NCBI GenBank assembly: GCA_029531795.1
Contig: JAPEIS010000014.1
Location: 2,108,001-2,172,000 of the forward strand
Length of the DNA: 64,000 bases
Direction: 5' to 3'
From: Sclerotinia nivalis
Taxonomy: Eukaryota; Ascomycota; Leotiomycetes; Helotiales; Sclerotiniaceae
Position 1 is the first letter of the stretch, and each line of letters opens with the position of its first letter. The notes below the pieces were generated by a model. It made no database searches. It had not been told where the DNA came from and was given only the letters and a program-made list of their open reading frames with translations. Both the position numbers and the translations under genes were made by a program. Positions 5,230 through 43,498 of the stretch are shown here, one piece after another.

Positions 5230-7450
5230 TAGACACCTAGGTACTTTTACTCTATATGCATGAGTAAAAGAGGTGGATTCATTGGTGATATAATTTACCC
5301 AGAACCAAAACTAGTTATAAAATTGTCCGTCGGTGAGATGAGGAAGGGGAAGTCGAGATTGGTTGGTGATGTAGCCATTGTTTATGTGGAGTTTAATAAC
5401 AGGTGTTATGGCGATAGTTCGTCATGGACTGACTCGTAATTTTCTGGATTTCGAATGATTGGGCATACGTGCTTGGAGGGAAGTGAAAGTTGCTTTGGGA
5501 TGTTCAATTGTAGATTACTTATCATTATGTTTTGCTTCAGTTTGATGTTCTCGTTGTAATAGCCTCTCCGAGGCTTAGATCAAGGCGAACCTTTTTTGGA
5601 ATTAGGGTAGAATGGGAGGGCGAGGGCAAGAGTAATGGGATGTGCAATAAATAAGTTTCTGTCGTTGTCTCTTTCATCTACCATTCGAGGCTCAGTGATG
5701 GATGGGCTCTTTGATACTGATGATTGGAATTGATTCAAATGCACATTGTTTCATATTTATGAGTATAGATTTTGACATTTGAAGGTTGGTAGTACGTATA
5801 TACTGTAGGCATTCCTGGAAGGTGATGTTAGGCTTGGATATAATGGTAAGTTGTATCATTAGCTGCATTATCCATTGTTCTAGGATTCGGTTGGTGTGGG
5901 AGTTAAGTATTTGGAAGTGGGAGATGCGATGTTTGGTGAAGGATGCCGGGGTTTCCATTTGGATATGTGCTTGGAGCTATGTGTGTGTTATTGTTTTGCT
6001 TGCTTGTTTGTTTATTGGATATTTTATCCTTTCTATGTGGTTGTTGATATGAAGCGGATAGGGAGAGTTGGTCGTGATGGGATTGATTGATTGATTGATT
6101 AAATTAACGTCTACACTGAGTCTAAGACTATCTAAGACGGCGGTCGTGATGGGATGTAGTGGTAGCGATAGTGCAGCTTCGATGGTTTGCTTAGTTGCAT
6201 AGGTGATCAATTACCTGATGATTCTAAATGTAGTGTATTGAAGTTGAAGTGTTGATGCTCTTTCTCGACGACAGGTGGGTTGAAATGCCAATGGCCTTCA
6301 TCGTAGTTATTAAGCTATTCTATTGTTCTCATTGGTTGTAGTTTATAGTTAACAGACATGAGTGGAAGATAGGTTGTAGGATACGAGACCTAAAAAGCTA
6401 AACCGACAGCTTTACACCAAATTAGTCTTTTATAAGTTTGAATGTAAATGGATAATGTCATATGTGTGATGGGAAAGTGAGGGATGGCATGAAGGAAGAG
6501 ATCGTGGGAGTATGTAGTAAATTGTGGTTAAGTCTTGAAAGGAAGATGCGCGAAGGTTGCGGAGATGGATGTAAAATGAGGGGAACCGCAGTAGCAGTGG
6601 GAAGAGAAGGGGTGATTGGGCGTTTATATGGTTATGTAATTTTTGGTTTGTCGATGAAAAACTAAACTGATTATAATCTTCTCAACTTTGCAGTGATGAA
6701 TGAGGTGGTCAATGTACTCGTTCTGCGAAAGAAACGAAAGCCGAAATATCTGTTCTTGAGGCTTCAAGACTCCATATTTTGTATGGATAAGAATAGAATA
6801 CTGCACGAAGAGAACCGAATTGTAAAGTACATCGTAGCAGCTGGATGAAGGATGGCTGATTGGACTATCCTATGGTCTCAAGAAGATTCTACAAATCCCT
6901 TTGGTTGAGCCTAGAACAATGGGACTTGGGTTGTCTATAAGGATGGTATTCACTTATTGATTTCATGTAGTGGCCAATTTCATCTATAGTACAATCATTG
7001 TAATTCACAAAGTAGCCAGGTTTCCTTTTGTTGCATGTCTACAAAAAGGAATATTGCCTATTCATCTATTCTCGAAGCTGCCAGCCACACCTTCAGCTTT
7101 ATCTGCCTCCAGGCTCATTTCAACTACATTGCTATTCGCATCGTTTTGCTTTATCCAAACACCTTTCATCACATGAAATGATTAAAATTCAAAGATAGAA
7201 GTGAATAGCACACGGTAGTCCCAGGGTACGATACTAGCGCTTGTTTGGCCCGCTTAGTCTACTAGCTTCTAGGTTCCAAGATTGTTGTTGTGAATTCTGA
7301 AAGGGAACCTGCTTGATATCTTGAGTATAAAATCTCCAACAACTTCAGAAAGATTCCTGATACACAAATCCTCAAAATCTTAATACAAAATTCCAGACTC
7401 AGCACAACCCACATCATTTCAACCAACATCACTGTAATAAAGTCACAGTC

Positions 7451-14752: not shown

Positions 14753-16682
14753 TCCTATTCTTGCGGGCAGATAATAAGGACAATGATTTTTTCAGAAAGA
14801 ATCTGGAGGAGAAATCGTTGATAAAACACGAAGGTACGATACGCCCGAGAAGTACTATGCTCGAGAATACCTTCATAGATGGAGATTGTGCACGCGAATT
14901 AGCTAAGCAAACGGCTCTATGGATATGTTTCAAGGTCTAAGGCATAAAGAAATAAATCTAGGAAGAACTATATCTGTGGATGATTCCGCCTGCTTTTGAC
15001 CTTATTGGAATAGTCTTTCTATCAATGCTTGCGAATATCATCACTCTCGCCACTATTGGTAAATTGTGACTTCAAACCTTTGAGTATGATCAATTGATTT
15101 AATCCGCTCTCTAATCACCGTGTATTATCTAATCCTTTCATACTTTTCATCCCACCGAGCCGGACTCCGAAAACTTTCTCATCTTCGATTCCGTCACTAA
15201 CCTTGTCAAATAAAGAACAACTAATGACCTAGGCCCCATCACTCACCCACTTTCATCCCACTATATATCTCCCCATCCCACATAATCCCGACCGCGCACC
15301 GACTCATCGCCCGAACTCCGACTTCGTCACTGAAAGTAACCTGCCTGAAAGCCGCATATGCGTAATTTCATCTCATCTAAACCAATCTCGTCATCAACAA
15401 AGAACCATTCTTCTCCCGAATCCATCTCACACGCACTCATCACGTTCCAAACACCTCGTCCGTATACCTCGCCTGATTACCTCGTCTGACGTCTGCTTCA
15501 TAAACTTGAAAAACACACAAAGAACTAGTAGAAACTTGCTGCTTTTACATGCGCTAAAATTGTCGTCAGGAACGTTCGGGAATAAGAGGACAAAGAAATT
15601 TTAGACATTTGCTGCTTTAATGAGGAGGTTAGTGGTGCCAGCTCGTAAGTAGTCCAATTAGAGAGCTGGTGACGAAATAACGGATGCGGTGGTAGAAAAG
15701 CTTGGGAATTTGATTGCGGAATTAGGTGATTGGAGCCGAGGAGGCCGAGGAGCAGGTGATTACTGAGTGAGAAAGGAATGAATGCCGAGGCTGATTCGAT
15801 GATGAAAGGGGGAGACAATGGAAATGAGCAAGAAGAGCACATTATGAGTACTATTTGGTGCTTCGGAAGGAATTCCGACTCCGTTTAAAGAAGAGCTTAA
15901 ATTTGGAACAATAAGGTGGCGAATTTTGTGAATTAGGACAAGAAAGATGAAAGTGGGCGGAATCCAGTTTTGGAGCGGACAATCGACATTGTGAGTTATA
16001 CGCGGATTAAAAATGGAGTATATTCAGTGAACGACCAGAATATAAACCTTGGATAATGACGAGTAAAGATGGACTTTGACAGGAAGATAAATTTAGAGCT
16101 GGTAAGTAATTATAGGCTTCGTGTGTATGGTCCTAACAGCGGGCGTTGTGGTGGATCTGATGGCAGAACGGAACGAGAAGGATCTCTTCCGTGAATAAAC
16201 AGTAAAATTATAACAATTGGTGACGGAAACTTGAAAATAGAAGGCGAAATATATATTTAATCGTCTCCGCACGTGTAGAATAAAAATAAAAGAACAGTAT
16301 GTAATGGAAAAGCGGAAGATCAAGATAAAAAGGACTGAATCTAAGTTTGGTTACTTTCCGTAACGTGTAGAAAACGTGTGGAATAATAGAAGATATAATT
16401 GGAATTAGAATTGAGTGAAGATTGAAATCAAAGGGAGATCCTACAACCAAAATCGAAAATCGAAAAATTAGTTCCAAAGTGATATGAATGAGGAAGTGGG
16501 AAGCAAGTAGACTGATTAGGTAAGTGGGGTGGCCCAGTACTAGTAATGCTGTCATGAGAGAAGTTTTCATGATACACCTGTGCCACTGCAGATATCTGAG
16601 TAGTCAATAAGGATAGATCCTACACTCCACCAATTTTCATCGTATTCAAGAACGCAATTACACAATTAGCACAAAGCTCAAA
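14753..16682. other. Intergenic region, no gene supported
   Basis: Roughly 15.1-15.5 kb is pyrimidine-rich on the plus strand and 15.7-16.5 kb is purine-rich. Short open frames exist on the minus strand (15525-15842, 16093-16570) but they read as hydrophobic low-complexity shadows. A loose repeat of GACTCCGAAAACTTTC / GAACTCCGACTTCGTCACT is visible at 15160-15340. Confidence 0.5.
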
Positions 16683-18900
16683 TGTTGCACATCTCAGAAG
16701 ACCGCGACTTCTCCAAATTCGTTAGCCATCATACCAAATTTCACTATTATACGGCTACTGTAATCTAATCTGACAACTTAAAGGATGAGGTCTATAAATA
16801 CGAAGTGATATAAGAATGGCAATGATCGCATAGTCGGCCGGTCTGGATGATGCTCGCAAAGCTGGGCCAATGTTCAGACATCTGAACCAAACTCAATTCT
16901 ACTCAATTCTGATGACCCTGTAAGTTTAGGGATTGTAGACGTGTATGTGTCAAATTCGCCTCCAAAGTTTAAGAAAAGAGTTCATGTATGCGCGAGTTAA
17001 ACGAGTTTAGAGAATAGAAGTGATGGCTCGGTCTTCGCGCACAAGGATGCAAGAGAATGAAAAAAGTTTTAATTCGACTTCTAAAGAGTTTCTCCTAATG
17101 ACCATATCCTTCCTCACTCTGTCTTGAGACCTATTAGCTTAACCAGAAAAGCCTTACCATCTCCTGAAGACTCAATGTTGCACATCTGAAAAGGCCGGCG
17201 ACCTTAATATCCCCAGTTGTCAACCACTACCAAGTTGCCATCGGAATCAAGAATCATTGTATAAGCCCATAATAAAAACACGCGGGATCCAAAAATGTAA
17301 GATCTTACATTCAAAAGTGGCAAAGGTCGCATCGGAGGTCTCGGCTATAATCCCACCTTCGGTCTCCGAGCGGGCTGTGTGATCACAAAGTCAAACACCA
17401 GGGGCTTACCATTAACCGAAAAATCTGGAAATCTGAGGAGCGGCGCTTACATTGCGCTCATCTAAACTAGTCACATCTTTTGTGGTTCCCGAGCGCGATG
17501 AGATATGCAGCGCTACTAGAAGACGCTTTGTTCCCTGGTAGTAATTCATAAAATTAGATGCTCTGGGTTTCTTGTGGTGTGGGATCTGGTACCCGGTTGA
17601 CTGGTGGGAGTAGCCGCCACAGCCACAAAGAAGGTGATTTTAACGGCCTCCGTAGTCATTGAACTGCAAATATATTGATTTTATCGACGAATACATCATT
17701 TTACTAATAAAAGGAATGAGAGTCGGTCGGTGGCCTTTTGAGATATGCAACAATCACTCGATCTAGCTTTACTAGCTCAAAAGGAAAGAAATCGTTGCAT
17801 ATCGTAAAATGGTCGCTATAAGGTCAGGTGAAAATGTACTTTGAAATAGAAAGATAATGTGGTGAGAGAAGTGCGGTTATTACATGCCGATGAAGCTCGG
17901 TGGTCTTTTGAGACGTGCAACATTGTGTTGTTTATGATCACTTGAGTTATTCTGGCATGAGGAAGCAACGAGGTAGAGTAATTACACTGATACAGGCACC
18001 ATAGCACAATCTTGCACGTTTGTTTAATGTTTTTGAGTAAGGATACCGATAGGATCTGTATTCGAATTTATGGTGGGATAACTTTTCACGTGGTTCAGTG
18101 AAATATAGAAAGATGAATTGTGCACACCCTGGCCAGTCCGTCCCTGGTCTATATCCTACTGACACACCCAGAATAAACTACATACAAAGAGTTGTCGGCC
18201 CTATTCATATCGGTCTCCGCTACTTCACGGGCTTGTCTCAACATTTCATAGGTAGCATCTCCAAATGTTGCACATCTCAAATGTCCACTGTTCCCTTCGA
18301 ATAACGTGAAACCATTGATTAGCTCAGTCATATGACTGGTGGACAGCCTCATTGAGGCCTCAATTAAATTTAATTTCCTCAGCCGCATGTTCCGGTCACC
18401 AAACGGCCTGTCAGAGAGGTAAAATCCATTGGCTCTTCCTTCACCAATATGTCTTGAGCTGCAACAATTCCCGATAACCGACGCTCTGAAGTACGAGAAA
18501 TATGATTTCCAGTAACATTCGGATTCCAGCAGCAAAATGATAAAAATATTGTCACCTGCCGTAAGCAGGCCAGGGCTCGGCCAGCGAAAAGGGAGGGCGG
18601 CCCCAGCTAACAAAGGAAGGGTATTTGAACGGGAGTTGTAATAACAGGAAGTGGGATATATTGAGAGCACCTAGCAGTAATACATACACGCACGCTAAGA
18701 GATGGCCGGTGACCTTCTGAGATATGCGAAATCAGTTGCCTAAGTAGTTTTATTTGCTGAGAGGTCGTTAATAAATATCCGAGGCTGGCCACGATTGGGT
18801 TGCGCGTGAAGTATTGCCTGGCATTGGAAGAAATCCGTATGGAGCTTAGATGGAATCGCTATCTATTGGTGAATGGAATTGGCATGAAGGTCAGAGGCCA

Positions 18901-18939
<39 letters not shown>

Positions 18940-21900
18940 AGTATTTAACGTCTGTGGGGATTTGTAAGGGGTTCCAAACCTTTCGAAGGGTATAGGGACG
19001 GGCAGTCTTGAGGGTGTTTATGTATAGAGGTCTGGTCCATTTCTACTTTTCTTTTCTTCTGTAAACTTGAGGGAGTTGTTCTGTTGTGTAGATTGCGGAT
19101 GCCGTCTATTGGTGTTCATCAAACAGACCTTCCTCGTCGGTTAGGTTGGTTTGTGGGTTAGGCTTAGCTCCAGAGTAGGAGGGGAGCTCCTGCTCGGGCA
19201 GGTATCTTTTAGTATTTCGGGTCCATCTGTTGTGGACCAGAGGGCATTTGAGACATGCAACAATAAAGCATTTGCTGATATTGTCCTAAACTCCATTTCT
19301 TTCTCTTTTCCTGTTTTCATGACATATGTCGAATCTTAGGTGAGAGACTTAAAACAACAATTACAAGGAAAATCAGTTTTCATCTTCAGTCTTTCAACAT
19401 TTTGAAATCTCCCTTCTTTGACTCCAACCACATCAATGCTTTTGTGTTCTAGCTGTCAAAAGACCTCAAAGAAATGCACAGCACTAGACCATGGGCTATG
19501 TAATCGAAAAGACATCGAATGTGAAAGGGAACTTAGCGTAAGACTCATTGAAGAATTTCTTCTCCGAGCTCTCATGTGCTCAGCACCTGGATCCCCTCGG
19601 ATTAGTATTGTGGATATCTGCAGTTAACTTAAAGTATCAACTAGCTCTAAGCTAAAGAGCCCTGCTAAAGAGCCCGGAGATATTATCATGGATACCTGTC
19701 TTCTCTAAAAGCCTTGGGATTCTCTCAAGTGAATAGCCGCGCATACGTTCTCGCCTTGCTCAATTCACAACATAGTGATGTGATTCTTCAGACGACGCAC
19801 GCCTATCTCGAAGCCTTTAAAACGAAGCTACCACGGACAAGAGATCTTCATACAATGGAACAAAATCTTGTCATTTCATTTCCATTGTGACTTACGGCCT
19901 CGAGGAGACCTACCCGGCCCACTTATAAATTCTATACGTCAAAATTCGAAGGCAAATAGGAAACAGATGGCAGAGAGGAGTCTGGGAATAAAAGTAGAGA
20001 AGGCCGCAGGCCTTTTGAGATGTGCAAACATTTGCCTTTGGGAAAATTGGGCGGGTACTCCGCGTGGTACTCTAAAAAATTCTTCTTTACTTCATGACGC
20101 CTCCACACAGACCCCATCAAACAACCACGAAGCCCTACTAGCAAGGGCAGCATGAACTTTCCATGCCCAATCAATTATTAAATGGGACAGAGACATTTGA
20201 GATATGCAACAAATATGTGATATTTCAGTAATGAAGGAGGATAATTTGCTTCTGGATTTCAGCATGTCATCTTTTTCACGGTGACCATAATCCAGACCTG
20301 ATCATTTTGAGATGAAGCATCCAAGTGGATCCTTAGGACGAGTCTGTCTATATGGTGAGGTCACCGGCCTTTTGAGGTATGCAACAAAATGTATTCTCTT
20401 GTTATTGGTTTGTTTTCTAAGTCGTAGGGGCTTTTGCTGTGATATCGTCTTCCTGGTCCCCTGGCTCGATCACTACCTTGCATTGGGGGGATTTCACCCT
20501 CGTAAAGGGACTTGATCCAGGTGGGGCTACTCACCTCCTTCCTTTCAGGTCGCCGATTGAGAGATGCAACAAAAGTTCTTTCGTTGAGAAGTGGGGGAAT
20601 ATCACTTGCCTTAAAGTCTTGTATAGCTCCACTTCGGTCTCGATCTCATTCGCCTTCGTACCATTGGATACTGTCCTTGGACATTCATCCAAAGGCTATT
20701 GCTGAACGGACACAGCCTGTGGAATCATCATATCGCCGATTAAGAAATGCAACAAAATCTTCTGTTAATTCAGCTTCCTGTCATTCATTCTCCATGCCCA
20801 GAGAAATTATGACTCGAGAGGTTGACGGGTGAAGTTTGGGTGGAGCCAAAAGATGAGCTTTCATTTTGACAAGTGGATACCCGGCGACCTTTAAGATATA
20901 AATTTGGAGAGAGGAGGATTTTCCAGGTCGCCGACCTTTTCGGGTTTGCAACAAAACGTTGTCTTTTCATCCAATTGAGCTCAAGTCGACCGTGAAGATT
21001 TTCATCTAGCTCGCCCCCACTTAGCACCTGGCATTGTTTCATCTCACTCAACCCCATAAAACTTCTTACTAATATTATCTTTATCGGCGACATCAATCCT
21101 TTGCAAGGAACCACCAGGTCGCCGACCTTTTCAGACGTGCAACAAATCCCATTCTTACTTGCTAGCAATCAATGTTGAACTTCTTCACAGAAGATGTCTT
21201 GGGCAATCAAAAAATCCGGCTAATCCCCGGACCCTGCTTTTTACGGAAGTTTCTCCGGAGCGAAGGAATAAGGTTGAATGGTCGCCGATATGGACAACGT
21301 AAATTTCGGTAATGTTGGATGAGACTCCACGATAGAAATCTCTTTTCTTGGTTGCATTCCTTCTTGAAAGAATCTGCCTTTATTGTACGTTCTTCAATAG
21401 TACACAGCAACAAACGCTCTTCTGCAGCCTTCCGGAAGTGACAAGTCTCCGCTATTCTATTCTTCAATGTGAACTTATCAGCCACCAAAATCAAGCCACA
21501 CACGCTGCATGAACAACATCAAAATTCATCGACGTCGCTCTTTCTCGGCTTTCTCATTAAATACCTCAACCTGTTGTCATCCTCTCAGACCCAACTTCAT
21601 TGCTTTTCGCAGGCGCTCTTGATGCTGCCACATCATCACGACCCCAATTCCGACCATAACCGAAAGTTTCTCCACGCTAGCCAATGATTACTATTGCTCC
21701 CAAATTGATGCGACCCCCGAGCCGGCCTCCTTTACATAGTGTGATATCCGAGTCGGGTGGAACTATTGGTGTCAATTATTTTTTACGAATCTTACAATAT
21801 TGAGGTCGGCGGCCTTTGGAGATGTGCAACATTTCTTTTTGATGAGTAATGATTGGAATGTTCGAGCTGGCATTTATCGAGCGATAAATTGCGATCGTGC

Positions 21901-22360
21901 CAGGGATGGAGGAGAAGGAATGAGATGAGGATGATCAAGAGACCTTTCCTGCGACCATGAGTTTATTTATGCTTACCCTTTGCTATTTGTGGATATTCGT
22001 TGCCCTTTGCTTGCAAAGAACCATAATTTCTAACTGTATCCCCTCAATACATTGGCTGAGGAAATCATCTTGCCAGCGCAAGGTTGGGTCAAGGCCATCT
22101 GAGATATGCAACAGTTGTATGCCGTCTACTTTCGTTCAAGGACAGAGTTTTTCAATAGTCTGTGAAGACCGCTGTCATCTGCAGGAGGTCGCATTCGAGG
22201 CCGGAGTGGGAAAAAATTCTCTGTTTACTCTAGGTTTGATGCCCAATAGCATCTAATTCCCAGGAAAATGCATTTAAGATATCTATTACTTGGTCTGCAG
22301 CACCCCGCTCGATAATATGGCCTGACCGTGGGTGACCCCAATGAGATGTGCAACAAATTG
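16683..22360. repeat. Array of ~20 copies of a ~29-nt interspersed motif
   Basis: The consensus is GGTCGCCGGCC followed directly by TTTTGAGATRTGCAACA and an A-rich end. The 5' half tends to a palindrome (GGTCGCCGACC in the best copies). Minus-strand copies start at 16683, 17176, 17793 and 18266. Plus-strand copies start at 17725, 17895, 18704, 19241, 20000, 20184, 20358, 20547, 20731, 20925, 21116, 21802, 22087 and 22330. Degenerate copies lie at 17483, 20294, 20880 and 21279. Between 20000 and 21147 the main copies start 184, 174, 189, 184, 194 and 191 nt apart, yet the DNA between them shows no obvious similarity. No long open frame spans the array. It may be a decayed ~185-bp satellite with a protected core, a cluster of protein-binding sites, or a set of short exons or peptides; function unknown. 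Confidence 0.8.
18904..18939. repeat. GAT trinucleotide microsatellite
   Basis: Twelve uninterrupted GAT units lie within the motif-array region between the copies at 18704 and 19241. No coding frame supports it. Confidence 0.9.
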
Positions 22361-23094
22361 ATGTTTACATATGGGTTGTGGTATGGATCATGCATGATCC
22401 AGATCTGGGGTGTAAATATGGTGCTAGCTAAGTGTCCTCTGGCTTGTAATTTCTTTCTATTTGTTCTGCTCATAAGGAAGTAATTCTTCAATTTTGCGCT
22501 GAGTTGCAAGATAATGTGTACCAATTTGAAAGCCTGAAGAGCTGTGTTGAGGTTTCAAGGAGAGAACATTATGAATTAGCTGTCCACTCTCTACATCATC
22601 TTTCTATGAGATAGGGGAAAGAATTCGCAAGCTGGGGTCCTAGGCTATACAACATAGTATCTACACCTTTAGCAGCTCAATGGCTTCATTACGTAATAGA
22701 AAGAAGAGCAATCCGTTTTTCAGAGAAGCGGTTTTCATATCAATCTCGATCAATTGAAGGTAGAATACTTGTTTCATATCGCTAAACCTCGTAGGCTAAC
22801 ACAATATATGTTATCAAAAGCGCTTTAGGCAGAGTTACGATTTTTGAGTTAGAAATACATCATCATACAAAATATATATTTAACTCAAATAAAACTGACA
22901 GCATAAAGATATGTTTGAGCGAGATATCAATACTAACTCTCATTCTTATATTAATGTCTAGCGCCTGGCTCCGCAGCCGCTATATAATACACCCAACCTT
23001 ACACCAACTGCAAAAAAAACACCAAAACTACACCGAAACCAAAAAACAAAACATATCCCCTCCAAAGATATGAAACCGATACACCACACCACCC
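22361..23094. other. AT-rich intergenic region
   Basis: This stretch holds no motif copy and no supported gene. About 22800-22960 is AT-rich. It separates the motif array from the minus-strand gene at 23095, whose 3' flank it forms. Confidence 0.5.
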
Positions 23095-26196: not shown

Positions 26197-27921
26197 ATGT
26201 CTCAAGATACATCTGCCGGCATGGCAAATCATCTAGTTAATACATCGGACGAAGCAAAATACGACCCTCGCCATAATACTTCTGAACTAGAAGTCACTAC
26301 GGATACTAAAGAAGGCATAGAAGTTACTGCAGCTAAGATGGATTTGGAATCATCGGCATCTCAATTATTGAATAATTTATCTGTATCTTCATCAAATCAA
26401 GAAGAGCTCAAAGCTCCGGATAATCCCTCGCAATCAGACTCTGCATTACACAAAAGTTCTGATGTTGATAATGAGTCGAAATCGATTATTGATACGGCAA
26501 CAACAACAGGTGGAGATGAACGGAAAGTAAATGCGGAAAATACTAATTCAGGTAGGACGAACCGTTCAATCTTTACCCTTTACATCATGTGAATACTTCT
26601 TGGAAGGTATATTCTAATCATGCTTGCTTCCCAAATAGTCGCACCACCAATGTCTATCGTACGACCACTTGAAAAGATAAATCCTGCGACTGAAAACCAG
26701 CCTTCTACAACAACTACCACTACAGAAACTACAATATCTCCTAATACTCATCAAAATTGTCAACCATCAATAACCTCTATTTTTACAAATCCGCAAATCT
26801 CGAGTGACAACACCACTATTGCGAATCCCGCCAGCATCCCAAATAAAGAAATGAATGTCGTCAAAAGCAAGACAACTCGTCGGAAGATGGCTCGGGTCAA
26901 GGCACATCCAAATGCCTTGACAATTTACGAGGCTGAGCTGACAAGTAAGGACAGGGCGACGCAAAAAGAAGCTGTTCGGCAATACTTGGAGAAGAACGTG
27001 AAGGAGGACTGGAATTGGGTCTGGCCAGCAGAAGAAAGTGACCCTATCGATATAATGGAAGCATTGGTCAAGAACACTTCTTTGGACGAGGCCCAGAATA
27101 CTAGTATAGATAACCCTACATATAAGGAGGAGTGGCGAGAAAGAGATATCTGGGAAAGCGATCCTAGCGAGAGCGAGAGCGAGGATCCGACTTCCCCTAA
27201 GGGTCCCATCAACATTAATTCTCCGGATAAGGAAAGCCCTTTTCGATTTGACAGCCCTGATAGTGTAGGTCAAATGGTTAAACAAAGACAGGCCGCTCGA
27301 AGACGCCGACATAAAAAGAAGCTTGCCGCGGAAATGGAATGGAATACTGGGGTACATTGTTATGTAGAAAGACGTGATGCATGGACTTGTGCTCGACGTG
27401 TCCCTCCACCAACCGGACGAGAACCTCGCGGCATCGAAAATACACCAGTCCACACAAATGGGAACCCCCATCAAGCTGTAGACGACTTCTCGGATTCAGA
27501 AGGATGGGACACGGAGGTCCCGGTTGCTAAATCTCTTCTACCACCGGACAATGCAATGAGAGCGAGCATTAACCCCCAAGCTTATAGCACCATATACGAC
27601 AAAGTTATTATACAGTCATTGACACCTAGTTGTCCTATCAATCTATCCGATGTCATACAAAGCTGTGTACACGGATGGAAACGGGATGGTGAATGGCCCC
27701 CTACTTCATCTTTCCCTGAACCTAGTCTCGCAGGCAAGAAAAAGCAGAGAAGGTTAAGCATGTTGAGTATCCTAGGGTTGAATTCACCCGAGACCAAAGC
27801 ACCTATTCCGGTGGCAGAGAAAAGTCCACAGACGCCAAATTCAATCAAAAAGGGACTACAGAAGTTATGGAAACGCGGAGATAAAGTTAAAGCGGCGCCT
27901 GAAGGTGGGACAGGGGCTTAG
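26197..27921 (+). CDS. Conserved-type fungal protein with WNTG...RRDAWT motif, function unknown
   Basis: Two exons, 26197-26551 and 26639-27921, joined in phase 1 (GTAGGA donor, CAAATAG acceptor with a CTAAT branch site), give 545 residues. The first ~230 residues are Ser/Thr/Asn-rich and disordered. After a basic KTTRRKMARVK segment come a helical stretch with EDWNWVWP, an acidic SESESED tract, a very basic RQAARRRRHKKK, and around residues 350-376 the segment EWNTGVHCYVERRDAWTCAR. That last motif resembles a conserved block I associate with uncharacterised fungal proteins (R-R-D-A-W-T-x-A). The C-terminal region before KLWKRGDK is serine- and proline-rich. No catalytic domain is visible. 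A nuclear or cortical regulatory role is possible but unsupported. Confidence 0.75.
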
Positions 27922-38141: not shown

Positions 38142-41100
38142 ATGGCTCAGCTCGGCCGTGTTGCTGATAGCAATGAGTCGGAAAGCGATCCAGGCGAGTC
38201 AGTAAATTCTCAAAACCTCCATACACCAGTCACAGAGCTCAACCGAAAGCCCGAGTCTGTCTCGGCGCATCAAGATGGAGAAGCAAACGGCAGTACAGGT
38301 GAAGACGGAGATGAGGAGGTAAACACATATGAGGACGCAGATGAGGACGCAGATGAGGACGCAGATGAGGACGGAAATGATCAAGTTGACGAAGATGAAG
38401 ACGAAATTGAAGAGGAAGATGCAGATAACACAATCGTCGTCATGGTCCCCGGGCCTAAGAACCCTGAAGAATATGTGCCATATCAGGAGGATGACACAGT
38501 AAATGCGGTATTGGAAGAGTTAACTGGCTCTGATGGCGAAACTTTGTACAAAGTTGAGTACGGAGATGAGCGAGAAGAGAATGTAAGTGAGATTTTTCTG
38601 TAATGCACCCTGTTGTACTTGAAGCAGCTCTCAAAGCATTCAGCATGTGCAATTTTTGCCCTCAAAATTGACAGTCCATCCATGGAGCGCTTGATCGTCC
38701 TCTAAAAGAAGCCCAAATTTACGCGGCCTGAAGGCCTGACATTTGCTACCATTCTTGCTACTCGGCTTCCTTTCTACTTCTCTTACAGCAGCCTTCTATA
38801 TTGTTGAGTTTAACTCTGATTTTGGTACGGAGCTCGGCGGGTTTGAAGAATTTACTCTTATTTATTACGGTTAATATCTCAGCAAAAACTCCAAGGTAGT
38901 CCTTGTTGTTAAGAGTCTGCTACCATACCTAACGTATCCTCTTTGAGTTTCAATTTATTTATCAAGATCAAACTTGGTCCATTCAGACACTTGCCCACCC
39001 CTCCTCACATCCATCTTACTTGAGCCAAATCTCTATCCTCCCCATTCTAGTAGTCATGGAGCCACCAGTTCCTTCCCCTGTGGGCGGCAGTAAACTGCGC
39101 GTATGTATATTGACGACTACTTTATTCTGTCACATTACTAAATTCATATCATCTCTATACTTTTTCGCATCATGAATTACTACTTTCAAGAGTGGATCTC
39201 TAACTTAAGCAAACCACAGGTCACGTTCAATAGGCTATTGCATCTTCCAAACGGTAACAACGCCTTGGATATTTTCAACAACAGAGATTCATTGGACTCA
39301 ATTGTGGTTGAGAATCCATCAAATTCTAGTCGGAGAATGTCTTCCAGGGCTGGTAAACGTCCTCGCCGACCGCCGACCGACAATAACTTTGTTGATATCA
39401 GCAATGTTCAGCTAAACTCTGACGATGACAGTTCCACAAAAAATGGAAAGAAGAAGCGACGTCTTGTAAACAAAATGTTAACTGTTGAGATTAAAAAAGC
39501 ACGCCGAAGCACTCGGTTTAGTGGTCGGCAGCCTTCGCGGCCCATCTTCGATGACGATGAAGATGACGATGACGAGGATGTCAATGACCCCCAATCGGGA
39601 ACTGTTCGTTCAAATGGTGATGGAACTCGAAGATCAGGACGTGCAGCAACAAGATCTGCTGCTCCAAGGAAAGCAAATACGCTCGCTAGCTATATGGAAG
39701 AAGATGAAGACGAGCTTGCTGGTGATTTGCAAGTCGATTCTGAAGGTAGCGATATAGCCTATGCTAAACTAAAGAGACGACGCGCAAGCAACGCTCGTGC
39801 TGTTGCTTCAAAGCCTAACAAACGTGGACGAACAAAAGCTCGGGGCAATCAGTCTGATGATAGTTCTGAGTGGTTACGAGAGCGTCCGTCTCGCATATCT
39901 GGACGTGGAAACAAAACCGGCAAAAACATGAAGGAAAGAGACGTTGATGAAGAAATTTATGCCGATGAGGTAGCCGGAAAGAGCACACCTAAAGTCATCA
40001 GCATACGAGAAATATACCAACCGATATCCGTGAATTCTCCCTTCGGTTTAATTCATGATCAAGACTGCGATGTTTGCGGTGGAACAGGCAAGAATTCCAA
40101 TAAAGGAAGAAGTAATCTTATTTACTGTCAAGGATGCTCTTCCTCCATACATAAACTTTGCCTAGGATATCGAGCAGGTCGGGAACATATGGTCACTAAG
40201 GTTGGCCACGAACATTTCGTTATGCAGTGTCGACGCTGTATCGGTCTAGCCGTCAAGAAAGATCCCCTTGCCCCACGACTTGGTGATTGTAGTAGCTGCA
40301 ATGAACCTGGACCATCCTGTGCTGCATTCTCCGTAAAGAAAACCGCGAAGCAGGAAGAGAAGCTGAGGGAAGAAAACAACGGTGATGACCCAATCACTAG
40401 TGTTCGCGATGACCTTATCAACAATCCAGACAATGTCCTATTTCGATGCCGAGGATGCCAGCGTGGGTTTCATTTTGAACATCTACCACCACGTTCTAAG
40501 AAATCAACCATCCCACACAATGCCGATGATCTACGCTCTCAAAGAATCCAAGAATATACTAAGAATTGGCAGTGCAAGCAATGCTCCCAGAGTACCACAA
40601 AACTGCAGACGTTAGTTGCATGGAGACCATCAGACCGCAAGTCTTACAAGGAAGGTGACGACTTTGACACTTTTCGTGAGGATGAAAAGGAATATCTTGT
40701 CAAATGGGATGATAAGTCGTATTTCCAATGCTCTTGGATGCCTGGCGCATGGGTTTGGGGAGTTGCTGCGGCTTCTATGCGGAAAGCTTTCATTCGTCGA
40801 GACGAGGGTGCCAATATGTCTCCAAAATGGACCAAAGAAGAGGCGATCTCTGAGGAATACCTACGAATGGAGATTATTTTTGATGTCGAGTATGATGAAT
40901 ATTTCCAACCAAAGTCCGAAGAATACGACAAGGCTCATATCAACGATGTTGTTCAGGTTTTGGTCAAGTTTAGAGGATTAACCTATGATGAATCCGTTTG
41001 GGAGGAACCTCCATCCCCAACTGAAGCTGATCGCTGGAGTGACTTTGTCTCAGCTTACAATGAATACGTCATGGGCAAGTATTTTAAGCAATCACCTGCA

Positions 41101-43498
41101 AGTGCTGTAAAAGAGCGCATCGATGCATTTCGTTCTCTGAACTTCGAGAAGAAGGTTGTTTTAAAGAAACAGCCTGCTTCGTTGATTGGTGGCGAGATGA
41201 TGAAACACCAAATGGAAGGTCTGAATTGGCTACTGTTTAACTTTCATCGACAAAAGAACGTTATCCTGGCTGATGAGATGGGTCTTGGCAAGACGATTCA
41301 GGTCATCGCCTTGATTGCCTCACTTGTGAAGGACAAACCAAAGGTAAGTGCGGAACAAATCCTCGAGTAACTCTACTAACAGCTCGTGAGTGCTCCCCTT
41401 TTCTCGTTGTTACACCAAACTCGACTTGTCCAAATTGGCGTCGCGAGATCAAAAAATGGGCACCTGGTCTTCGTGTCGTTGCATACTATGGTGCTAAATC
41501 TGCTCGAGATATGGCCATGAAGTATGAAATGTATCCCAATGGCTGCTCTGACCTCCGTGCTGATATTGTGGTAACATCCTATGAAGCACCAGTCGATGAC
41601 TCCAGTAGGGCCTTCTTCAAGAAAGTTAAATGGGCTGGTATGATTGTTGATGAGGGTCAACGACTGAAGAATGATGGCAATCTTCTCTATGGCGCCTTGA
41701 CAGCTTTGAAAATACCATTCCAAGTTCTTCTTTCAGGCACACCGTTGCAGAACAACAAGCGAGAGCTCTTCAACCTTCTTCAATTCTTAGATGACTCTAT
41801 CGATGCCGCAGAATTGGACGAAAAATATGCTGAGCTAACGAAAGAAAACTTGCCAGAACTCCATGAGCTCATCCGACCTTTCTTCCTCAGGCGCACCAAG
41901 CTTCAAGTGCTGAAGTTCTTGCCTCCTATGTCACAAACGATCATACCGGTGTCCATGAGTGTCGTGCAGAAACAACTGTACAAGTCAATCTTGGCAAAGA
42001 ACCCTGAGTTGATCAAATCAATCATTGGTAAAACGAACAAGGCTCTCCGCCCTACGGAACGAGGGAATTTGAACAACATTTTGATGCAACTTCGTAAATG
42101 TCTTTGTCATCCTTTCTTGTATAGTTCGGCTATCGAAGAGACTTCACTGAGTCACGAAGCTCTCCATCGAAATTTGATCGATGCCTCATCCAAGTTTCAA
42201 TTACTGGAAATCATGCTTCCAAAGTTGCAAGCTCGAGGACATAGAGTTCTTATCTTTAGTCAATTTTTGAAGCAACTCGATCTTGTCGAAGACTTCTTGA
42301 ATGGTCTTGAGCTTCCTTTCCAACGTTTAGATGGTACCGTTAGCACACTTGAAAAGCAAAAGAGGATCGATGCATTCAATGCACCCAACTCAGAACTGTT
42401 TGCATTTCTCCTCTCTACCAGAGCTGGTGGTGTCGGCATCAATTTGGCAACTGCAGATACCGTCATAATCATGGATCCTGATTTCAACCCACATCAAGAT
42501 ATTCAAGCTCTTTCTCGCGCTCATCGCATTGGTCAAAAGAAAAAGGTACTTGTATTTCAGCTAGTGACTAAGGGTAGTGCGGAAGAGCAGATTGTTCAAG
42601 TTGGACGTAAAAAGATGGCTCTTGATCAAGCTCTTATCGAAAGTTTAGATGTAAAGGACGATGCAGGAGACAATCTCGAGGCAATTCTTAGACATGGGGC
42701 AGAAGCTGTTCTTCTTGATGACGATAGCAAAGATGTTTACTACGATCCGGCATCAGTTGATGAGCTTCTGGATCGTTCTCAGGTCGAAAATACTACTAAT
42801 GATGACAACACCGCAGAATCTCAATTCTCACATGCTCGTGTATGGATCAAAGACAAGGGAGACCTGTCAGAGGATTTTGGTGAAACTGAGGCTGAACCGG
42901 CTGCACCAAAAGCGCTGCTATGGGATGCTATCTTGAAACAACGTGCGACCGATGCTGCTCTGGAAGCTGCTAAGAACATGCAAACATTTGGTCGTGGAAA
43001 GCGCGCTCGACAGGTCAGTTCTATTACAATTCATTCTACTACGTCATAGTCCTTTACTAATTATTTAGACCGTTGACTATGAAAAGTCACAGCCTGAGCT
43101 AATGGAACTGGACGGTCCTGATGGCTCGCCTCGAAAAGATGGTCGACGAACTCGAAGATCTCACAGCGATGATGAATTTGCTGGTCATGGTGCAAAGGAA
43201 TCTGAAGCTGAGGAGTCGGACGCATATGAAGACGTCGATCCCCGAGAATTGGAAACCGGTCAGCCAAGAGCGAAAGGTACGAAATCAAAAAATCGTCTTT
43301 ACACGTCCATCTTCCAATGAATCAAAACGCAAAATGGACATTCCAGGCGGTAATAAATTACGCCTCGGATCGCTCACTCCTACTTTGTCACCCCTTAAAA
43401 AAATTAGTAAGCAGCAGCAGCAAGGCTCCAAGTATCAACCAGATAGCTCTGTGATGAGACCAACAAGACCTGGCAAGAAGCATCTGCTCGTGCAATAA
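38142..43498 (+). CDS. CHD/Mi-2-type chromatin remodelling ATPase (Mit1-like)
   Basis: Predicted exons: 38142-38582, 39220-41343, 41391-43013, 43069-43276 and probably 43347-43498 (about 1515 residues). Exon 1 is acidic with four 12-nt repeats (GAGGACGCAGAT); its end (YKVEYGDEREEN) joins VTFNRLLHLPNG to form a Tudor/chromo-like fold. Then come two Cys-rich PHD-like clusters (from CDVCGG, residue ~429, and FRCRGCQRGFH) and a chromodomain region (EYLVKWDDKSYF ~638; VLVKFRGLTYDESVWEEP ~728). The SNF2 ATPase has DEMGLGKT (~834) and DEGQRLKN (~942, in place of DEAH), and the helicase C domain has RAGGVGINL and ALSRAHRIGQ (~1200). Order and content match fungal Mi-2/Mit1, the remodeler of the SHREC silencing complex. 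Intron 41344-41390 skips an AG three bases after the CTAAC branch and uses the next one. The 3' end is uncertain: the frame changes after 43276. Confidence 0.85.
39056..39100 (+). other. Possible alternative first coding exon inside the remodeler's long intron
   Basis: Inside the unusually long (637-nt) first intron an ATG opens a 45-nt frame (MEPPVPSPVGGSKLR). It ends exactly at a GTATGT donor and, spliced to the same acceptor at 39220, stays in phase 0. This would give a protein lacking the acidic N-terminus. A T/C-rich stretch with ATTCTAG precedes it. Transcript evidence is needed to tell it from chance. Confidence 0.35.

Follow-up and report, generated by a model that had tools for sequence, protein, structure and literature searches.

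The gene-less array at positions 16683–22360 of the window (the whole 64-kb stretch of DNA analysed here) is probably one of many satellite-like arrays dispersed between genes, in which a double-stranded DNA site, composed of a constant core and an array-specific arm, is bound cooperatively by a putative protein or protein family. Each unit would keep a site of roughly 25–50 bp, namely the constant 12-bp AGAYRTGCAACA core and a 5′ arm particular to the array or array type. The binder would be a sequence-specific DNA-binding protein, or a related family whose members would read the core through a common part and the arm through a variable one; adjoining complexes would touch one another, so that close sites are kept on the same face of the helix, and long-period arrays would have a spacing of about one nucleosome repeat.

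Copies of the motif in the window

The window array holds 18 recognisable copies of arm plus core and two decayed ones, listed below together with an isolated core found outside the array. Positions come from motif scans, except for the two decayed copies, which were read directly from the letters.

16683–16710, minus strand: arm and core copy, core exact
17176–17203, minus strand: arm and core copy, GGTCGCCGGCC arm exact, core exact
17725–17752, plus strand: arm and core copy, core exact
17793–17820, minus strand: arm and core copy, core with 2 mismatches
17895–17922, plus strand: arm and core copy, core exact, AGACGTGCAACA
18266–18293, minus strand: arm and core copy, core exact
18704–18731, plus strand: arm and core copy, core with 2 mismatches
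19235–19262, plus strand: arm and core copy, core exact
20002–20029, plus strand: arm and core copy, core with 2 mismatches
20184–20211, plus strand: arm and core copy, core exact
20359–20386, plus strand: arm and core copy, core with 1 mismatch
20544–20571, plus strand: arm and core copy, arm shortened, core with 1 mismatch
20727–20754, plus strand: arm and core copy, core with 1 mismatch
20883–20904, plus strand: decayed copy, arm remnant, core lost
20926–20953, plus strand: copy with arm GGTCGCCGACC exact, core with 3 mismatches
21117–21144, plus strand: arm and core copy, core exact
21280–21298, plus strand: decayed copy, arm GGTCGCCGA, core damaged
21804–21831, plus strand: arm and core copy, core exact
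22086–22113, plus strand: arm and core copy, core exact
22328–22355, plus strand: arm and core copy, core exact
7029–7040, minus strand: isolated exact core AGACATGCAACA, outside the array

Allowing up to three mismatches, TTTTGAGATRTGCAACA has 21 matches in the 64-kb window, 16 of them within 16683–22360, versus a mean of 0.62 and a maximum of 4 in 100 dinucleotide shuffles; leaving its fifth base free adds two copies, at 20738 and 20937. The 12-bp core alone, with up to two mismatches, gives 20 matches in 16600–22400 (first-order Markov mean 1.59, maximum 5) and 27 in the remaining ~58 kb, where just one is exact (7029). Three core matches in the array (17501, 18010, and 21173) are without an arm and are, thus, taken as probable chance matches. 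No ATG-started ORF of at least 120 aa was found in 16683–22360 and no tRNA gene in the window; the only tandem repeats that TRF reported in the array are a (TGA)n run and a 13-bp pair, not homogenised units. The seven copies at 20013–21128 follow one another with start-to-start spacings of 182, 175, 185, 183, 199, and 191 bp.

The original prediction, made from the letters of this stretch, had described about 20 copies in 5.7 kb of gene-less DNA, with those at 16683, 17176, 17793, and 18266 on the minus strand and the others on the plus strand. Our count agrees with it, and the matches withstand the shuffled-sequence control that it had proposed; its near-regular period is also retained, at 175–199 bp instead of the 174–194 bp given then.

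The core and its spacing across the genome

The exact AGAYRTGCAACA core is in excess in the 50.3-Mb genome of this Sclerotiniaceae fungus, with 641 copies versus 7 for the reversed controls, and it is clustered. On contigs C1, C2, and C3, to which the clustering counts apply, 202 exact sites make up 104 loci, about one per 143 kb; 71 of these loci have a single exact core, 19 have at least three sites (0.25 expected under uniform placement), and neighbouring sites lie on the same strand in 85 cases versus 13 on opposite strands. The surroundings of the core are T-rich before and A-rich after it and, in 156 pooled sites, information does not reach beyond the core and the bases close to it. Such a frequent 12-letter word, often found in small arrays that have adjoining sequence particular to them and close copies whole helical turns apart, suggests an undescribed protein-binding-site system.

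These counts do away with one objection attached to the original prediction, that of a common word spread evenly through the genome. The shared core that it had postulated stands; the upstream part is particular to this array: the GGTCGCCGGCC arm with its core (up to three mismatches) occurs in five places in the whole genome, every one in the window, and this arm is a marker of the window array only. The occurrence of the core genome-wide and an upstream half differing between arrays had not been foreseen.

Close neighbours are spaced by whole helical turns: same-strand neighbours 45–106 bp apart fall at multiples of 10.5 bp. For same-strand spacings of up to 140 bp in the retrieved loci, R(10.5) was 0.31 (n = 60 after merging, p = 0.004), and pairs outside the retrieved DNA gave V = 0.36 (n = 43, p = 0.0003). 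Tested by locus, phasing was found in the 32 loci outside the retrieved DNA (p = 0.0004) and in the 15 retrieved ones (p = 0.046); over all 47 loci, 35 of them positive, it exceeded all 5000 nulls. The phasing table had 91 rows, from which one non-adjacent pair was dropped for the pair test and a second one for the by-locus test. The fixed 10.5 test was significant, and so was the pooled scan with the period left free (none of 300 nulls reaching it); under a free period, neither half was significant alone (p = 0.127 for the new and 0.147 for the seen half), nor was the scan of all retrieved spacings up to 260 bp (p = 0.293). Only three core-free tandem repeats served as a phasing control. Phasing was absent from spacings of 140–260 bp (R(10.5) = 0.09, p = 0.45), and the longer spacings peak at 150–200 bp without phase.

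Among 200 same-strand neighbour pairs 21–260 bp apart in the retrieved loci, none is closer than 47 bp, as expected from a site of up to about 45 bp; one exact-core pair 33 bp apart is the exception. The whole-turn spacing could alternatively originate from a duplication mechanism preferring whole turns. Regarding nucleosomes, to which the arrays may be linked, there was no clear 10-bp peak in dinucleotide power around the cores (3.4 at 10.2 bp upstream and 5.1 at 13 bp downstream, both values being without a null).

Arms, flanks, and alternative explanations

Many arrays carry other “arms” at the same position 5′ of the core, and one arm type occurs with its core on six contigs. In most arrays tested, arms persist beyond flank similarity: between units with non-aligning flanks (same-array pairs closer than 150 bp being dropped), arms are more alike than background in 20 of 29 arrays and not in the other 9, where diverged pairs average an arm identity of at most about 0.28 for a background of 0.277. 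Within arrays, 575 of 1837 pairs have flanks like unrelated DNA, and their arms are at least 50% identical in 16.9% of cases, versus 2.7% of 1500 sampled between-array pairs. The within-cluster identity excess extends to about −35 in 25 clusters; in 48 type-1 units, counted after 24 of 72 candidates without arm similarity were dropped, it breaks off abruptly, with the edge lying between −33 and −37. Genome-wide, 17 matches to the type-1 arm were found, versus 0 for the control. In an arm-only scan, a partly circular test, 58 of 64 matches in type-1 loci are followed by a core with at most two mismatches, and 31 matches without a core were found in other loci (26 over all loci with the reversed model). 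A core kept while spacers diverge, as first proposed, is, thus, borne out by unit comparisons within arrays; the two options then offered, an old satellite with a selected core and an array of binding sites, appear to be the same, namely satellite-like units that would keep a site.

It is unlikely that these are neutral polycore minisatellites, in which the core either signals or results from the recombination or slippage that seeds tandem duplication, and the arms are the sequence that neighboured the founding core. Human minisatellites sharing a core provide a precedent, and ours are indeed head-to-tail arrays of differing units with a common core; units are array-specific, periods are many (about 50 to 200 bp), and the core is present in 10 of 13 TRF rows of period 30–130 in 302 kb of array-selected DNA, with several rows overlapping. 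These 10 rows lie in other array loci, and some arrays are, therefore, locally homogenised. The 9 of 29 arrays with arms at or near background also fit this explanation, while the other 20 exhibit constraint outside the core, with a sharp edge in type 1. Whole-turn spacing speaks against neutrality as well, since it is seen from locus to locus and also at different lengths inside a single array (62–63, 74–75, 94–95, 123–127, and 135 bp in L032).

We give slightly less credit to a short REP/BIME-like mobile element of ~45–160 bp, spreading between genes and multiplying locally, with the core as its fixed part. Arm types do recur at distant loci in four of the five locus pairs tried (L045/L048, 166 nt at 74%; L046/L064, 47 nt at 85%; L012/L041, 86 nt at 78%; L052/L025, 102 nt at 69%; no arm likeness for L049/L063), and cross-locus arm matches of at least 19 of 30 number 490 versus 8 with reversed arms, mostly for type 1. 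Also in its favour, most of the unique coding-like ORFs beside the arrays (13 of 17, with two belonging to the same copia element) have their 3′ end towards the array; this orientation is based on crude gene calling, which yielded no flank for many of the 21 array rows. However, an unsystematic look at the units revealed no target-site duplication or partner transposase; no gene family recurs beside the arrays, as comparing 1212 stop-to-stop ORFs all-against-all returned only LINE, copia, and other repeat pieces; and mobility alone leaves helical phasing unexplained. Pieces of one LINE, which we take to be Tad-like, lie in or near arrays L009, L010, L015, L029, L033, and L035. A transposon target preference was set aside because the target duplication of the L029 copy is unlike the core and another LINE piece lies elsewhere in the window. 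Coding repeats were rejected, the spacings not being divisible by three; open frames running through the core were at most 26–117 aa long in each of 20 single-site loci (601 bp apiece).

Ordinary promoter or enhancer clusters of a transcription factor regulon are very improbable. Cooperating transcription factors typically have homotypically clustered and helically phased sites, which counts for this reading, but flanking ORFs mostly turn their 3′ ends to the array, arms differ from array to array, and the 20 flanking ORFs scanned have no theme in common (zinc transporter, phospholipase D, ankyrin protein, GTPase, RdRP-associated domain, GCD14, tRNA synthetase, MED6, permease, and reverse transcriptases; 7 of 20 without a Pfam family). 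Least credible are clusters of small non-coding RNA genes with the core as promoter or processing element, comparable to the upstream motif of nematode piRNA genes: same-strand clusters with one common motif and variable neighbouring sequence fit this reading, but the type-1 arm, the only type folded, has no RNA fold (no pairs by RNAalifold; single-sequence folding not above shuffled, mean z −0.26), Rfam gave no match at the gathering threshold in the window and none at E ≤ 1 in four loci, and helical phasing points to double-stranded DNA.

We keep to cooperative binding of a putative protein at the arrays, whose purpose may be architectural or silencing rather than promoter control. A bolder version, which we put forward with considerable doubt, is that the dozens of arrays form an addressing system: a 12-bp anchor plus an own address per type would be read by a co-evolving family of DNA-binding proteins, assembling on one helix face as iteron-binding proteins do on plasmids and, at selected sites between genes, nucleating a state that organises chromatin or chromosomes. 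Fungal heterochromatin and centromeres are usually described through AT-richness and repeats, not through a defined short box. If confirmed, a filamentous fungus would possess genome-wide, sequence-defined chromosomal arrays with measurable rules (core, address, and whole-turn spacing); the survival of a common box in otherwise unrelated satellites, otherwise discussed for CENP-B, would become testable, and the core sequence would be a handle for fishing out its putative protein.

Comparison with known systems

A literature search outside most subscription journals returned nothing on such arrays, and the exact motif strings only in papers judged unrelated. The B-box (GGTTCGANTCC) of TFIIIC clusters, which act as boundary elements, has two matches in the 302 kb, both more than 200 bp away from any exact core. 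Plasmid replication iterons are direct repeats with a common half, a replicon-specific half, and whole-turn spacing; unlike them, the core arrays are chromosomal, with longer spacing and, among the loci inspected, no link to a replicon or Rep gene. Bacterial REP/BIME are hundreds of intergenic elements of ~35–45 bp, often grouped, near gene 3′ ends, in which a constant head is joined to a palindromic part that differs by type. The core arrays resemble them in being intergenic, grouped, near gene 3′ ends, and built from a fixed and a type-specific part, but their host is a eukaryote and their arms are weakly enriched in dyads (stems of at least 6 in 32/347 versus 13/347 shuffled, the sites not being independent). 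Polycore minisatellites, reportedly described by Jeffreys and colleagues in 1985, also have one short core common to unrelated tandem arrays; here, in contrast, arms outlast spacer similarity in most arrays tested, and spacings reach 200 bp and more, the short ones being whole-turn.

The closest known design is that of the CENP-B box (consensus TTCGNNNNANNCGGG), itself with no match in 302,516 bases (36 loci, L009–L044, plus the window; two for the reversed control). A centromere role is not supported: with each contig divided into 20 bins, loci occupy 18 on C1, 15 on C2, and 14 on C3, which speaks against confinement to centromeres. In contrast to CENP-B satellites, the core arrays are short, scattered along contigs, and flanked by genes, the box is in many of them accompanied by an arm particular to the array, and close sites are helically phased. 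According to PMC8997354, CENP-B derives from a transposase by domestication, dimerises, and can connect separate boxes through a loop. What the core arrays have in common with mammalian centromeric satellites is a short box kept in satellite units, a protein reader, proposed in our case, and, for part of the window array, a nucleosome-length spacing.

The core and its arrays

In the 50.3-Mb genome (31 contigs; the window is C14:2108001-2172000), three variants of the 12-bp core, AGATATGCAACA, AGATGTGCAACA and AGACRTGCAACA, occur 322, 172 and 147 times, against 2, 2 and 3 occurrences for the reversed controls, that is, 641 versus 7 in sum. The original prediction of about twenty non-random copies in the window is borne out: we found 21 motif matches at ≤3 mismatches in 64 kb, with 0.62 expected for the whole window; 16 of the 21 lie within 16683-22360, and 18 recognisable copies plus two decayed ones were counted in all. 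The strands assigned to the copies were correct, and the near-regular stretch was confirmed, with spacings of 175-199 nt. One protein encoded in the window is 93% identical to a protein of Stromatinia cepivora, 88% to one of Sclerotinia trifoliorum and 86% to one of S. sclerotiorum, which places the organism in the Sclerotiniaceae.

Clustering was assessed on the complete site lists of contigs C1-C3 (14.9 Mb) with a linkage distance of 3 kb. The 202 core sites form 104 loci, with 71 single-site loci versus 186 under uniform placement and 19 loci of at least three sites versus 0.25; neighbours within a locus are on the same strand in 85 cases and on opposite strands in 13. Loci are spread over 18/20, 15/20 and 14/20 bins of C1, C2 and C3, respectively.

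Features observed in and around the arrays:
Window 6085-6141: LINE piece; others lie in fetched loci L009, L010, L015, L033 and L035
Window 18903-18939: perfect (TGA)12 run within the window array
Window 26620-27921, +: gene for a Gag1-like clamp domain protein, ~4 kb right of the array
Window 39172-43049, +: PHD / MIT1-chromodomain / SNF2 remodeler gene, ~17 kb from the array, a closeness that is probably coincidental
L029:898-2161: 5'-truncated copy of this LINE, bearing RNase-H-like ORF fragments and a (TGAT)n tail; it lies within an array and has a target duplication of 12 bp
C4:2552900-2553900 (L039): inverted core pairs, 31 bp apart, the two cores having a single intervening arm in common, four times
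C18:379037-379352 (G000, from the gap-pattern search): five consecutive 61-63 bp spacings

Arms upstream of the core

The half upstream of the core is array-specific. GGTCGCCGGCC followed by the core (≤3 mismatches) has five matches genome-wide, each of them within the window, and the 15-bp window arm alone (≤1 mismatch) has seven, four in the window and three scattered (control 1). The same core is preceded by different arms in the loci compared, twenty of 10 kb and sixteen shorter, picked for multiple cores. Among the profiles of 26 array regions (4 to 24 sites each), some show little arm signal in a fixed column register (e.g., L018a, L034, L035 and L038); the clear ones include the following.

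Clear arms in profiles of array regions (locus, arm)
L032: TCTCTGGGCAAGAA
L016: CGGACTATCCGAAATCC
L015: TATGTCATTnTGCATGAAACTC
L043: GAACTAAAA
L021: GGTGAATAATG

The type 1 arm, CTTGTCAGGATGAGCCTTGTAA (≤3 mismatches), recurs on eight contigs, at 17 places in all (control 0); the core follows it on C1, C2, C3, C8, C9 and C12, and no exact core was found at the C7 and C11 places among the matches listed. In a sample of 20 single sites, arms known from other loci occur too (L045/L048, L046/L064, L052/L025), and L063 has the type 1 arm.

Within-array excess identity (25 clusters) peaks at −11 to −5 (0.16 to 0.22) and has faded by about −35; downstream it is lower, about 0.05 to 0.09 as far as +50. 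In most arrays tested, arm similarity outlasts flank similarity. Of 1837 within-array pairs, 575 have a flank alignment at the level of unrelated DNA (diverged pairs); in these, mean arm identity is 0.341 versus a background of 0.277, and the arms reach 50% identity or more in 16.9%, versus 2.7% of the 1500 between-array pairs sampled. By array, with some loci pooling two different arrays, diverged-pair identity is 0.39 in the window array (66 pairs) and 0.50, 0.52 and 0.45 in L009, L013 and L030, but 0.16 in L019 (3 pairs) and 0.31 in L023 (9 pairs), likewise type 1, and ≤0.28 in 9 of 29 arrays. Type-1 information, 1.14 bits at −33, is down to 0.05 at −37 (48 units). We consider arm and core to form a unit of up to ~45 bp.

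Spacing between cores

The first-seen spacings (62-63, 74, 94, 125-127 and 135 bp) are whole multiples of ~10.5 bp. In the fetched loci, 86 same-strand spacings ≤140 bp, or 60 once near-equal values within a locus were merged, gave R = 0.31 at 10.5 bp (p = 0.004) and a best period of 10.45 bp (scan p = 0.047); up to 260 bp, R was 0.18 (p = 0.018; scan p = 0.293), and spacings of 140-260 bp alone showed no phasing. Genome-wide gap-pattern searches returned 48 pairs at 45-75 bp and 43 at 76-106 bp, with none in either control. The 47 pairs outside the fetched loci (43 merged), some of which had already appeared in earlier core-site lists, gave V = 0.36 (p = 0.0003) at 10.5 bp and phase 0. This period and phase had been set with the help of the fetched loci and of textbook B-DNA, the phase by hand ahead of the gap-pattern searches. 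When these new pairs were pooled with the seen ones of the fetched loci (81), 10.50 scored highest among periods of 7-14 bp, with 0 of 300 nulls as high; with the period left free, neither half was significant alone (p = 0.127 for new and 0.147 for seen pairs). With loci grouped by hand, a block shift per locus gave p = 0.0004 for 32 new loci and 0.046 for 15 seen ones, all 47 together exceeding 5000 of 5000 nulls; there was no signal at 9.5, 10.0, 11.0 or 11.5 bp. Core-free tandem repeats numbered three, too few for a phasing control.

Same-strand neighbours have a lower spacing limit near 45 bp, with the exception of one exact-core pair 33 bp apart (C6:1874838 and 1874871). A second mode at 150-200 bp matches the nucleosome-repeat length, and that length could point to a nucleosome link; dinucleotides around the cores gave no support for it.

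Possible roles and comparison with CENP-B

No tRNA gene or Rfam family was found in the window, no Rfam family in four array loci, no consensus fold for type 1 arms, on which the fold test was run, and no long open reading frame. Arms show a weak excess of dyads (stems ≥6 in 32/347 versus 13 after shuffling and 14 to 18 for each of five control windows). The absence of an RNA signal, the whole-turn spacing, the ~45-bp limit and an arm and core of at most that length together argue, with moderate certainty, for protein complexes on double-stranded DNA, which would contact adjacent complexes. Array-specific arms would then require a single protein whose second domain is under loose constraint, or else a set of paralogues. 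The odds given to these readings rest mainly on the spacing result.

As to purpose, the arrays could be promoters, a reading disfavoured by their flanking genes, which have no common theme and mostly present their 3' ends to the arrays (13/17, a crude count). On these grounds an architectural or silencing role ranks highest, though with low certainty. Our search, which covered few subscription journals, found no account of these arrays.

Among known systems, the CENP-B box, a single box retained in satellites, comes closest in design. In PMC8997354, CENP-B is described as transposase-derived and dimer-forming, and its boxes as apparently of independent origin in several lineages. The arrays differ from that box in sequence, its consensus having no match in 302 kb of array loci and window; unlike CENP-B box satellites, they lie at more than one place per contig (C1-C3).
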